Of a stretch of DNA of 38,623 nt, positions 8,015-25,568 are shown piece after piece. Both the position numbers and the translations under genes were made by a program. The notes below the pieces were generated by a model. That model saw only the letters and a program-made list of their open reading frames with translations. It was not told where the DNA came from and made no database searches. The stretch is taken from assembly GCA_007134025.1 (NCBI GenBank), contig SLLR01000024.1, positions 1 through 38,623 on the forward strand, in the 5' to 3' direction. Position 1 is the stretch's first letter. Every line of letters starts with the position of its first letter. This stretch comes from Desulfuromonadaceae bacterium (GTDB taxonomy: Bacteria > Desulfobacterota > Desulfuromonadia > Desulfuromonadales > Syntrophotaleaceae).

Positions 8015-9526
8015 GTGAACATTCTTCTTGTGTATCCTCACTATCCCGATACGTTCTGGAGCTTCCGGCACGCTCTCAAATTCATTGGTAGAAGCGCGAG
8101 TTTTCCGCCTTTGGGGCTCTTGACCCTGGCCGCCATGTTGCCGGGAGAGTGGCACAAGAGGCTTGTTGATATGAATGTAAGGCCTCTGACCGATGAAGCT
8201 CTGGAGTGGGCGGATTACGTTTTCATCAGCGCCATGACCGTTCAACGCACATCAGCACAGGAAATCATTGGTCGTTGTCGGCAAAGTAGAGTGAAAACTG
8301 TGGCGGGCGGTCCTCTGTTTACCGCCAGTCATGACGATTTTGCCGAGGTTGACCATCTGGTGCTGGGGGAAGCGGAGCTGACCCTGCCGCTCTTTCTGGA
8401 AGACCTGAAAAACGGTAAGGCGCAGCGTCTTTATGTCGACGAACAGTGGGCGGATCTGGCCCATACGCCCATTCCGCTCTGGAACCTGATCGACGTCCGG
8501 GACTATGCCTCCATGAATATTCAGTATTGCCGGGGATGTCCTTTTGATTGCGAGTTTTGCGACATCACCGCCCTGTTTGGCAGAAAAACGCGGAGCAAGA
8601 CCCGGGGGCAGCTGCTTGCCGAACTGGAAAGCCTGTACCTGCGGGGGTGGCGCGGGGCGATCTTTTTCGTTGACGACAACTTTATTGGCGACAAGGGGAA
8701 GCTGAAGCGGGAGATTCTGCCCGCCATGATCGAATGGATGAAACAAAAAGGGCGGCCTTTTTATTTTTACACCGAGGCGTCCATTGATCTGGCCGATGAA
8801 CCGCAACTCATGGAGCTCATGGTCGAAGCCGGGTTTGAAGAAGTCTTTATCGGCATCGAGACTCCTTGTGAAGAATGTCATGACGAAGCCGGCAAGGTGC
8901 AGAACCGAAACCGTGATCTGTTGGCTTCCGTCAAGACCATACAGCGGGCCGGATTGCAGGTTCATGGCGGATTTATTATCGGCTTTGACAGTGATCCGCC
9001 CTCGATTTTTGACCAGCAGATCGGTTTCATCCAGGAAAGCGGCATCGTCACGGCCATGGTGGGACTGCTATCCGTCATTCGTGGAACCCGGCTCTACCAG
9101 CGCCTGGCACGAGAAGGAAGGCTTATCGGGGAAGACAGTGGAAACAACACGGATCTTAATCTCAACTTTGTGCCGCGGATGGAACCCGACACACTTATTG
9201 CCGGTTATCGAACAGTTCTGAAGACCATCTACTCGCCTAAAAACTACTACCAGCGGATCATCCGCTTGCTGCGAGAGTATCGCCCTCGGCGGCCTCGAAC
9301 GTTTCACCTCCAGCCAGGATATGTCAGGGCATTTTTCAAATCGATGCTGTTGCTGGGAGTTGTCGGCAGGGAGCGAATACACTATTGGAAGCTGTTCTTC
9401 TGGACCCTGGCCAGAAAACCACGACTTTTCCCCCGGGCCATAACCTATGCCATCTATGGTTTTCATTTTCGAAAGATCGCTGAAAAAGTTCAATCGAAGG
9501 ACCTTTTGGATAGGAGCGGTATTTGA
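8015..9526 (+). CDS. B12-binding radical SAM protein with DUF4070-type C-terminus
   Basis: A 503-residue enzyme. The N-terminal part (about 1-140) is a cobalamin-binding Rossmann-like domain, starting NILLVYPHYPDTFWSF and including FPPLGLLTLAAMLP. The radical SAM core (about 165-370) has the iron-sulfur motif C175-x3-C179-x2-C182 in CPFDCEFC, preceded by an extra C172. The C-terminal region (about 380-500) resembles DUF4070, seen in relatives such as the hopanoid methylase HpnP. The family likely catalyses radical methylation or ring chemistry; the substrate is unknown, and no hopanoid genes are nearby to support that role. The start is GTG at 8015, fixed by a strong AGGAGGAGG at 8000-8008. 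It follows a structured 233-base gap. Confidence 0.85.
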   Translation: MNILLVYPHYPDTFWSFRHALKFIGRSASFPPLGLLTLAAMLPGEWHKRLVDMNVRPLTDEALEWADYVFISAMTVQRTSAQEIIGRCRQSRVKTVAGGPLFTASHDDFAEVDHLVLGEAELTLPLFLEDLKNGKAQRLYVDEQWADLAHTPIPLWNLIDVRDYASMNIQYCRGCPFDCEFCDITALFGRKTRSKTRGQLLAELESLYLRGWRGAIFFVDDNFIGDKGKLKREILPAMIEWMKQKGRPFYFYTEASIDLADEPQLMELMVEAGFEEVFIGIETPCEECHDEAGKVQNRNRDLLASVKTIQRAGLQVHGGFIIGFDSDPPSIFDQQIGFIQESGIVTAMVGLLSVIRGTRLYQRLAREGRLIGEDSGNNTDLNLNFVPRMEPDTLIAGYRTVLKTIYSPKNYYQRIIRLLREYRPRRPRTFHLQPGYVRAFFKSMLLLGVVGRERIHYWKLFFWTLARKPRLFPRAITYAIYGFHFRKIAEKVQSKDLLDRSGI

Positions 9527-22062: not shown

Positions 22063-22401
22063 ACGGTTGCACAGGCCGATGCTGTTTTCCAGTCGCCGGT
22101 GGGAGGGGCCTGAAGACTTTTTACCGCAGTTCGCGGGGCAGTTAACCCGTTGCTCTGCAAACCAGACGGTTCTGCTGGGATTTTTTTGGTCTTTTCCGAA
22201 TCGAACTTGATTTTTTTTCTAAACTGCGGCAGGCTGACGGATAATTGTTTTATTGTTCGCCGATCCAAGGCCGCGGAAGCAATTGCTTGTGGCCGAGGTG
22301 GGCGGTCCACTGAAATTCAAATGCCGCGCTGCAACCCGTAACAGTCAACCGCCGTCGAATGATCGGGAATCACCCCGTTGCCACCAGAAAGGAACCCCTG
22401 T
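22063..22401 (+). other. intergenic region with a palindrome
   Basis: No gene is supported in these 339 bases. AAGCAATTGCTT (22277-22288) is a perfect 12-bp palindrome flanked by GGCC at 22269-22272 and 22291-22294. A -10-like GATAAT lies at 22240-22245 without a good -35. The palindrome would be at about +25 to +36, a position suited to a repressor. No clear terminator follows the AddA-like gene. Confidence 0.35.
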
Positions 22402-22677
22402 ATGCCGAAATATGTCATTGAACGTGAAATCCCCGGAGCCGGAAGCCTTACCGCCGAAGACTTTCAGGCGATTTCTCAAAAATCCTGCAGTGTTCTGCAG
22501 GAACTGGGACCGCAGATCCAGTGGGTAGAAAGTTATGTGACCGACGAAAAGATCTACTGCATATACATCGCGCCCAATGCCGATATGGTCATGGAACATG
22601 CCAAGCAGGGAGGTTTTCCGGCAAACAGTGTCGCCGAAGTCCGGAATGTTATCAGCCCGGTGACGGCCGAAGGTTAG
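22402..22677 (+). CDS. DUF4242 (SCO4226-like) small protein
   Basis: A 91-residue single-domain protein: PKYVIEREIPGAGSLTAEDF, then a helix with SCSVLQELG, the strand pair WVESYVTDEKIYCIYIAPN, and a final EHAKQGGFPANSVAEVR. This is the ferredoxin-like fold pattern of DUF4242; an actinobacterial member (SCO4226) is described as nickel-binding. Whether this protein binds metal cannot be judged from sequence alone. ATG 22402 is chosen for its AGAAAGGAA ribosome site and because the family begins with PKYVIER-like sequence. It is a single-gene unit closed by a strong terminator at 22721. Confidence 0.82.
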   Translation: MPKYVIEREIPGAGSLTAEDFQAISQKSCSVLQELGPQIQWVESYVTDEKIYCIYIAPNADMVMEHAKQGGFPANSVAEVRNVISPVTAEG

Positions 22678-22720: not shown

Positions 22721-22745
22721 CCGCCCGCTTCCGGGCGGTTTTTTT
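22721..22745 (+). terminator. intrinsic terminator after the DUF4242 gene
   Basis: CCGCCCG (22721-22727) and CGGGCGG (22732-22738) form a perfect 7-bp stem with a CTTC loop, followed by seven T (22739-22745). Confidence 0.93.
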
Positions 22746-22890
22746 ATGCGACTGAAGAGAGCCTTCGAAGAAATTGACCGTCGATAAATACCGGGTTCAG
22801 CCATTGACGGCGGCGGGGATACGAATTATATTATTCCTCGTCGTCCAAGGCGCTATCCCGCTTCACCATTTCCAAGGAGAGGTACGACCC

Positions 22891-23124
22891 ATGCTTTTCA
22901 GAAACAAATGCAAAACCTGTGATTATTGGACTGTTTTTGAACTGAAAATCAAGGACGATAAGGCCTTGAAAATCTGCACTCACTGTCAGCACCAGGAAGA
23001 AATCGACTGGAACAGCAATGCCGAAACCCTGATAAGTGATGGTGAAAAGGATGTAAGGGCTCTGCAGGGCCATTTCCCCGCCCTGGCCCGCCTGAAAAAT
23101 CGCGGCGACCACATCCGCTTATAG
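22891..23124 (+). CDS. small double-CxxC protein, copy 1
   Basis: A 77-residue protein that I cannot assign to a named family. Cys7-x2-Cys10 and Cys29-x2-Cys32 look like a zinc-ribbon or redox metal site; the second pair lies in CTHCQH. The C-terminal half is charged and helical and ends LKNRGDHIRL. It is clearly paralogous to the gene at 23331: same cysteine spacing (C-x2-C-x18-C-x2-C), the same CTHCQH, and a similar final LKNxGDHIxL. ATG 22891 has a strong AAGGAGAGG ribosome site (22874-22882). The frame is open upstream to 22774, but that part is not shared with the paralogue. Role unknown. Confidence 0.75.
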   Translation: MLFRNKCKTCDYWTVFELKIKDDKALKICTHCQHQEEIDWNSNAETLISDGEKDVRALQGHFPALARLKNRGDHIRL

Positions 23125-23330
23125 CCATTGCCGTTCCCCCCATGCGATCCCGTCGTTTTCCCAGCATTTGGTAGCCGTTGCATCGTTTCTGGCAGCCATG
23201 CTGGAAGCGGTTGCCGTCGTTTCTGGTTGCGTTTCGCACCGAGGTTAAATAATCATCGTTTTGCTGTTCAGCAACGGGCCCGTGCCGGTTTGTGGGGCCA
23301 TTTAATCGTGACATAACCAGGATGTTTTCA

Positions 23331-23594
23331 ATGATAACCAAACGCGAAGTTAAGCCGATTCTGCATCGGCAGAAATGCAAGAATTGCAACTTTTATACAG
23401 TTCATCGAGTAATCCCCGCCGGCGAAAAAGCCGTCGATACCTGTACCCATTGTCAGCACGCGGTGGAAATTCCCTGGGACCATGAAATCAAGGCCTCTTT
23501 CAAAAATAAAGAGAAGTTTTTTAAAAATCTGGAAGAACTTTATCCGGAGCTGAGGGATCTTAAAAATCCCGGGGATCATATTAGTCTGGATTGA
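23331..23594 (+). CDS. small double-CxxC protein, copy 2
   Basis: An 87-residue paralogue of the protein encoded at 22891. Cysteines 16, 19, 38 and 41 keep the C-x2-C-x18-C-x2-C spacing, with KCKNCNFYTV and DTCTHCQH as the metal-site segments and LKNPGDHISLD at the end. The C-terminal half is lysine-rich and probably helical. The start is placed at ATG 23331, with CAGGAT about 8 bases before it; ATG 23322 is in frame but would have no room for that site. The two copies are separated by 206 bases without an obvious repeat, so the duplication is old. No transmembrane or signal segment. Function unknown. Confidence 0.75.
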   Translation: MITKREVKPILHRQKCKNCNFYTVHRVIPAGEKAVDTCTHCQHAVEIPWDHEIKASFKNKEKFFKNLEELYPELRDLKNPGDHISLD

Positions 23595-23641
23595 AGGGGC
23601 ATTATATTTTTCTGCAAATGAATCTTTTTTTAGGAGGAAGC

Positions 23642-23911
23642 ATGTTTATCAGATTGATTATCGCCGATGAAGAAAAGGCCCGCAGCCGGGGACTGGAGCC
23701 GGTCAATGAACTGGCATGCAACGAAAAGTACTGTAATGATTCCGAGGGCTACCCGGTTTTTCTCCTTCCCAACGAGCAACTGCTGGACTGTGGCACCTGG
23801 CGTGAATTGCGGGATGAATGCGGCGCCACCATGGAAACGGACAATCTCACCAAGTTGTGTCTCGGAGTAGGTATTCCCCGCGATGAGCCAGGCGTGACTC
23901 TGGTGAAATAA
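23642..23911 (+). CDS. 89-residue cysteine-containing protein, unknown
   Basis: A small soluble protein I do not recognise. It opens FIRLIIADEEKARSRGLEPV and has five cysteines (26, 31, 50, 60, 73), including an ELACNEKYC segment and LLDCGTWRELRDECG. The spread of cysteines could bind a metal or form disulfides, but there is no standard motif and no signal peptide. ATG 23642 has a strong AGGAGGA ribosome site (23631-23637), and the gene lies 47 bases after the second double-CxxC gene, so the three may form one operon ending at the terminator at 24003. Start and reality of the gene are well supported; function is not. Confidence 0.7.
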   Translation: MFIRLIIADEEKARSRGLEPVNELACNEKYCNDSEGYPVFLLPNEQLLDCGTWRELRDECGATMETDNLTKLCLGVGIPRDEPGVTLVK

Positions 23912-24002: not shown

Positions 24003-24032
24003 GCCTCTCCTGATTCCAGGGGAGGCTTTTTT
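24003..24032 (+). terminator. intrinsic terminator
   Basis: GCCTCTCC (24003-24010) pairs with GGGGAGGC (24019-24026), with one G-T pair and an eight-base loop, followed by six T. It closes the small-gene cluster before the GTPase gene. Confidence 0.88.
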
Positions 24033-24221
24033 CGGGCTTGAATTTTTTTGCTCGAGGGAGCCTGGCAGGAGCAGCTCAGTGTCGCAGGCCGGCTTGTTGT
24101 AGGCCCTGTCTCATACCGGTTACTCTGAAAAGGTTTCGGTTGTGCTTTTTCATGACTTTGCTATGCTCTTCAGGCCAAAAGGAGTTTAAAATAAGCCCCG
24201 GTTTGATAAGGATGTTTGAAG

Positions 24222-25568
24222 ATGGGCATGGATGAAGGGGGGCAGCGCCGAGACGTTGTCATCATGGGCGCGGGAGGAAGGGATTTTCATAACTTCAATT
24301 GCCTGTTTCGGCACCGTTCCGATGTGCGGGTGCTGGCCTTTACGGCGACCCAGATTCCTTTTCAGCAGGGTCGCCGGTATCCGGCAGAACTGGCAGGCAG
24401 TCTCTATCCCCAGGGGATACCCATTGTCGCCGAAGACGCCTTGCCCGAGCTGTTGGCCGAGGGTGGGGTCGAGGTGTTTTTTTCATACAGCGACATTTGC
24501 CACCAGCAACTGATGACGGTGGCTTCTCGGATCCTGGCCCTCGGTGGGCGTTTTACCCTGCCGGCACCCAATCAAACCATGCTGCGGGCCCGCCTGCCGG
24601 TGCTTTCAGTTTGCGCCGTTCGTACCGGCTGCGGCAAGAGCCCCGTTGTGCGTTTTTTGTGTCATCGCCTGTTGAGCAAGGGAATTCGCCCGGTTGTGGT
24701 GCGGCACCCCATGGCCTATGGTGATCTGACGGGTAGGGCGGTGCAGCACATCAGTTCCGGCGGCGCGGCCGATCAGCAACGCTGGACATTGGAGGAAAGA
24801 GAAGAGTTCGAACCGTTGCTGAAACTGGGGATCGAGGTTTTTTGCGGCGTCGATTATGAGGCAGTTCTTGCCGGAGCCGAAGAGGCCGGGGATCTTATCG
24901 TCTGGGATGGTGGCAACAACGACACCCCCTTTTTTCATCCGGACCTGGAACTGGTGCTTGTGGATCCTCTGCGGGCCGGTGACGAAGTGGCTTATTTCCC
25001 CGGTCAGGTTAATCTGCGCCGTGCTCGAATACTGGTCGTGACCAAGGTGGACGAGGCCACGCCGGAACAACTGGAACGGCTGCGGAATAGCATACGCCTC
25101 TGCAATCCCAACGCAAGAGTGGTCGAGGGGCGATTGGAACTTTCTCTGGACCATCCCGACCGGGTGCGGAACCAGAGGGTGCTGGTGGTTGAGGACGGGC
25201 CAACCGTCACCCACGGCGGCATGGCCAGCGGTGCCGGAATGGTCGCTGCTCATCGCTACGGTGCCGCTCGAGTGGTTGATCCCCGCCCCGCTGCTCGGGG
25301 CAGTTTGCGGGACATTTATCGGCAATGGCCCCATCTCGGCGCTGTGGTGCCCGCCATGGGCTACAGCCCGCAGCAGCTGGATGATCTGCGCCGGACCCTG
25401 GAGGATACGGAGTGTGATCTGGTGCTGTCGGCCACACCAGTGGATCTGAGCCGCCTGCTGGGCCTGAACAGACCTGTGGAACAGGTGCGCTACGATTTTG
25501 TCGAGTGTCGGGAGGGTCAACTGGCCGATCTTGTCTTCAAAGGACTCAAGTCAATAAGAAGCCGTTAA
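24222..25568 (+). CDS. cyclic 2,3-diphosphoglycerate synthetase-like GTPase (COG2403)
   Basis: A 448-residue predicted P-loop protein. The N-terminal part (about 1-115) is Rossmann-like (VVIMGAGGRDFHNFN). The nucleotide-binding part has a P-loop in VCAVRTGCGKSPVVRFL, a conserved DGGNND segment, and TKVD as a possible base-recognition motif. It resembles archaeal cyclic 2,3-diphosphoglycerate synthetase, which closes the ring of 2,3-diphosphoglycerate using ATP in thermophilic methanogens. Bacterial members have no proven role, and cyclic DPG production here should not be assumed. ATG 24222 has AAGGAT 8 bases upstream; TTG 24216 and ATG 24228 are alternatives. The DUF2148 gene follows 68 bases later. 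Confidence 0.8.
   Translation: MGMDEGGQRRDVVIMGAGGRDFHNFNCLFRHRSDVRVLAFTATQIPFQQGRRYPAELAGSLYPQGIPIVAEDALPELLAEGGVEVFFSYSDICHQQLMTVASRILALGGRFTLPAPNQTMLRARLPVLSVCAVRTGCGKSPVVRFLCHRLLSKGIRPVVVRHPMAYGDLTGRAVQHISSGGAADQQRWTLEEREEFEPLLKLGIEVFCGVDYEAVLAGAEEAGDLIVWDGGNNDTPFFHPDLELVLVDPLRAGDEVAYFPGQVNLRRARILVVTKVDEATPEQLERLRNSIRLCNPNARVVEGRLELSLDHPDRVRNQRVLVVEDGPTVTHGGMASGAGMVAAHRYGAARVVDPRPAARGSLRDIYRQWPHLGAVVPAMGYSPQQLDDLRRTLEDTECDLVLSATPVDLSRLLGLNRPVEQVRYDFVECREGQLADLVFKGLKSIRSR

Follow-up and report, generated by a model that had tools for sequence, protein, structure and literature searches.

The window, a 38,623-nucleotide stretch of contig from a Desulfuromonadaceae bacterium, contains a run of three small genes, here called A, B and C, which are listed with their flanking signals and neighbors in Table 1. 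Gene A is preceded by the ribosome-binding site AAGGAGAGG. The gap between A and B is 206 bases (28-307 in relatives) and that between B and C is 47 bases (29-81 in relatives).

Table 1. Features of the A-B-C locus in window coordinates.
Feature	Position	Strand	Description	Basis
Upstream gene	22378-22677		Just upstream of the operon; matches PF14026 (SCO4226-like, nickel-responsive protein)	Pfam, E 3e-29
Terminator of upstream gene	22721..22745	+	Predicted intrinsic terminator, setting this gene apart from the operon	Stem of 7 G-C pairs and T run
Operon promoter (candidate)	22804..22832	+	TTGACG-17-TATATT	Window scan; conserved in relatives
Gene A	22891..23124	+	77-aa predicted Cys4 zinc-ribbon protein; B paralogue apparently specific to the window's family	Translation
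Gene B	23331..23594	+	Predicted Cys4 zinc ribbon of 87 aa; C-terminal helix, then LKxxGDHIxLD tail; probable ancestral copy	Translation
Gene C	23642..23911	+	89-aa acidic putative orphan, pI about 4.5	Translation
Terminator 3' of C (candidate)	24003..24033	+	Intrinsic terminator	Window scan, weak versus shuffles; conserved in relatives
Downstream gene	24216-25568		Putative nucleotide-binding protein of 450 aa, beyond the operon	No Pfam match at cut-off

A and B are paralogues with similarity beyond chance, aligning without gaps over 77 residues at 42% identity (BLASTP, E 7e-22). The cysteines of A (Cys 7, 10, 29 and 32) and of B (Cys 16, 19, 38 and 41) have the same C-x2-C-x18-C-x2-C arrangement, and CTHCQH and LKN[RP]GDHI[RS]L are common to both proteins. 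An initial annotation had described tandem paralogues with identical cysteine spacing and a shared tail; its coordinates proved exact and the alignment bears out the relationship. The window's genome, assembled to 2.25 Mb over 149 contigs and 99% complete, has no third copy of A/B. Both proteins are near neutral to mildly acidic in charge. At five positions of the alignment, A and B are each fixed for a different residue (F/H, N/Q, W/Y, G/E and R/P), a pattern that fits distinct roles for the two copies.

The AlphaFold2 model of B, built from the family alignment, has a mean pLDDT of 86.8, with predicted strands at residues 10-15, 22-30, 33-38 and 44-48 followed by helices at 51-70 and 72-76. 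A Cys4 ribbon is expected to have at least three strands and conserved CxxC knuckles; in B, four predicted strands surround the cysteines at a pLDDT of about 91, and the four cysteines, arranged as two knuckles, are invariant in all 39 aligned A/B homologues. The helix of B is amphipathic and that of A is not clearly so. Very probably, the four cysteines of each protein hold one metal atom. Predicted fold and spacing together point to a structural zinc site, and zinc in a structural role is the likely assignment for both proteins. Foldseek returned no PDB match to the B fold at E <0.001.

In the window, C encodes five cysteines, and to that extent its description as a five-cysteine partner 47 bases beyond B was accurate. 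The five do not form a conserved set: Cys31 and Cys73 alone never vary among 13 orthologues, with Cys60 present in 12, Cys26 in 10 and Cys50 in 9. Because most of these residues are unconserved, the five cysteines are no defining trait, and C is no obvious metal protein itself. A compact alpha-beta fold is predicted (AlphaFold2, pLDDT 90), for which Foldseek found no match at E <0.001 in the PDB or among viral models.

With B as query, 13 of the 14 genomes that GTDB places in the window's family yielded both A and B, and the same 13 contain C; the remaining genome is a bin that is 67% complete. Order and strand are kept wherever the contig permits in these 13 of 14 genomes, so that the trio co-occurs in conserved order, as the initial annotation had proposed checking. 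In one genome of the window's genus (G002) a contig break falls inside B, leaving A with the 5' part of B on one contig and the rest of B with C on another. Outside the family, B occurs alone in 10 of 263 other genomes of the class, belonging to families f6, f8, f18 and f21 of the same order and f24 and f25 of the rest of the class; four genomes of family f12 have a distant form whose tail is similar and whose C-terminus is longer. B orthologues share 47-82% identity across seven families of the class. A was not recovered from the 263 other class genomes searched, and C was found nowhere outside the window's family among 277 class genomes, profile search included; C thus appears to be an orphan specific to this family. 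In a phylum sample of 395 genomes, matches were confined to members of the class, plus one weak match.

In a tree of 39 members, the A sequences form one clade on a long branch with support of 100/100, covering all four genera of the window's family and no others; the point at which A attaches within B is weakly supported. The restriction of A to one family, set against single-copy B elsewhere, indicates that B is the old gene and that A is, on sequence distribution, a tandem duplicate that apparently arose at the base of the family. The f12 ribbon form (L071, L072, L050 and L073) has an additional charged stretch at its C-terminus and adjoins a conserved 457-aa protein in three genomes. In L066, an ORF of 420 aa next to B had grouped with the A/B family and was discarded as an overlapping-frame artefact.

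All three genes are clearly maintained as proteins by purifying selection. Median pairwise dN/dS (Nei-Gojobori, unsaturated pairs) was 0.066 for A, 0.077 for B and 0.113 for C, ratios that are rough, as most A and B pairs are saturated at synonymous sites. Retention of both copies under selection, together with their differing subfamily-specific residues, agrees with the earlier suggestion of distinct roles.

Scans of the window alone gave promoter-like and terminator-like signals that did not exceed shuffled sequence and were insufficient in themselves; the assignment of both signals is therefore drawn from their conservation across genomes. Each of the six genomes belonging to the window's genus or to a sister genus (g4) has the -35 element TTGACG and the 17-base spacer; five carry TATATT as the -10 element and the sixth TATGAT, and the promoter lies 58-144 nt upstream of the A start. 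Terminators of similar sequence occur at the matching place after C in five comparable genomes, or six of six with the window. No internal terminator was found in the A-B and B-C gaps scanned. In two further genera (g2 and g3), scans identified neither a promoter before A nor a terminator after C. In the window's genus and g4, order and strand are kept with one promoter before A and one terminator after C, and this arrangement suggests that A-B-C form one small operon. The initial annotation had noted neither these bounding signals nor the status of A as a duplicate of B confined to the family.

The outer neighbors of A-B-C vary between genera while the trio stays, which indicates that the trio itself is what is kept. 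This variation also ruled out guessing a pathway from the neighbors, and no function-bearing neighbor linked to A-B-C across genera was found. The PF14026 gene is followed by a terminator of its own and occurs with the trio in some genomes only. The 450-aa protein gave a weak LpxK-like match (E 0.0026) and was otherwise seen in this position in the sister species alone. Genera g2 and g3 have a fourth small gene of 63-68 aa 3' of C, absent from the window's genome, at L055 (about 8928-9116, minus strand) and directly after C in L056-L061. Its pattern is MMI.VRYKDGTYDRVK...GRDPVRG...YRGVERR, and its small-protein family, which has no Pfam match, occurs in 105 of 136 genomes of the order at up to 17 copies each.

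The initial annotation could assign none of the three proteins to a named family, and the searches upheld this. For A, B and C, no match in Pfam, NCBIfam, PHROG or PADLOC reached cut-off, or was both significant and shared across the family; a PDB sequence search of all three likewise gave no significant match, and for C no significant match of any kind emerged from these five collections. Family, PDB and fold searches linked A/B to no characterized zinc-ribbon regulator at significance, and a literature search on the A-B-C family found nothing. Weak matches were scattered over many unrelated zinc ribbons, as a generic ribbon would give. Hits of B to VWC2L_C (E 7.9e-4) and adenylate kinase (E 0.007) were rejected, being far under curated cut-offs and missing from most orthologues.

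Among known systems, FmdB / Zn_ribbon_8 proteins (PF09723, TIGR02605) resemble A/B in being small and in having two CxxC pairs at comparable spacing, and their ribbon aligns with A residues 6-34; scores were below the cut-offs (14.1 versus 34.4 and 13.0 versus 31.3 bits), and A/B differ in having their own LKxxGDHIxL tail. ZifS of Thermus thermophilus (PDB 8yoz), a 77-residue stand-alone zinc protein, was among the best-ranked fold matches to B, though homology cannot be shown at these values (Foldseek E 1.5, probability 0.14, TM 0.30). One-domain zinc-finger micro-proteins of Haloferax volcanii (PMC6562870), which stand alone and have cellular roles, may offer a functional analogy only.

The conserved pairs of knuckles invite a redox interpretation, and the initial annotation had offered a metal-binding or redox pair as an example of what A and B might be. 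They would then bind iron in a rubredoxin-like Fe(SCys)4 center or alternate between thiol and disulfide states, serving as electron carriers or redox switches in anaerobes, with C as a thiol partner via Cys31 and Cys73, the two cysteines it keeps in 13 of 13 orthologues. Rubredoxin-like ribbons (RUBY_RBDX, PF21349) do share a four-cysteine, two-knuckle metal site with A/B, and 15 of 39 members weakly resemble the rubredoxin-like domain of rubrerythrin (best E 0.096). No rubredoxin-like match reaches cut-off, however (8.7 versus 26.5 bits for B against RUBY_RBDX). The knuckles of rubredoxins have the form CPxCG; the motif of A/B is instead KCxxC...CTHC, and no oxidoreductase or other redox enzyme is linked to the genes across genera. 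We found no evidence for the redox part of the proposal, fold and spacing favor a structural zinc site, and we consider a redox function quite unlikely.

An accessory role in translation or transcription, in which the ribbons of A and B bind the ribosome or RNA polymerase, is hinted at by sub-threshold likeness to L37Ae (best E 0.0018), RNA polymerase subunit P, mitochondrial bL32 (E 0.51) and Nop10 (E 0.03). All of these lie under cut-offs and are typical of any zinc ribbon; the near-neutral to acidic charge of A/B also speaks against it, the sporadic distribution of B is ill suited to a core factor of either process, and such a role seems unlikely. Small genes in an operon, with B sporadic outside the family and C lineage-specific, might also describe a toxin-antitoxin-like, phage-defense or mobile-element cargo unit. 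That identity is highly improbable given no PADLOC or meaningful PHROG match, fixation in 13 of 14 family genomes and strong purifying selection; because no relatives were found in the viral contigs or plasmids searched, a mobile origin of the trio was rejected.

The explanation we prefer, at a probability of roughly 45%, is that A and B are two structural-zinc adaptors with different partners, B being ancestral and A its duplicate, co-produced with the acidic C from one operon. B, a protein of the class Desulfuromonadia, would be a soluble zinc ribbon that stands alone. Its two CxxC knuckles would bind a single metal, most probably zinc rather than iron, that shapes a four-stranded ribbon; an amphipathic helix would follow, and a nearly invariant LKxxGDHIxL tail would close the protein. 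With the zinc most likely structural, B may have an adaptor or regulatory function, binding a larger partner through its ribbon face and tail. Retention of this tail in A, in B and partly in the f12 form suggests that it probably contacts a shared kind of partner. After tandem duplication at the base of the family, B would have kept the old role and A would have diverged toward a different partner or state. The new acidic C, always encoded with A and B, is most likely the third member of one complex or its client. Its production in step as a third component is suggested by co-conservation in one family only, A and C co-occurring in 13 genomes of a single family that share descent. A bolder reading, which we regard as rather unlikely, is that two ribbons and an acidic protein build a complex found in a single family of Desulfuromonadales and in no other. 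It would be a novel module for regulation or assembly that came about when a lone zinc-ribbon gene was duplicated and a newly arisen orphan gene joined it.

A-B-C is a real, conserved and unannotated set of genes, yet an ordinary one: a lineage-restricted small-protein operon with generic zinc ribbons. The find is genuine, if modest, and settles no long-standing question, and the functional role proposed from sequence is putative. The locus adds two protein families not yet listed, A/B and C. It also provides a clean case in which a single zinc-ribbon gene appears to have been duplicated and joined by an orphan gene within one bacterial family, with the single-gene state, B alone, persisting in relatives and available for comparison.
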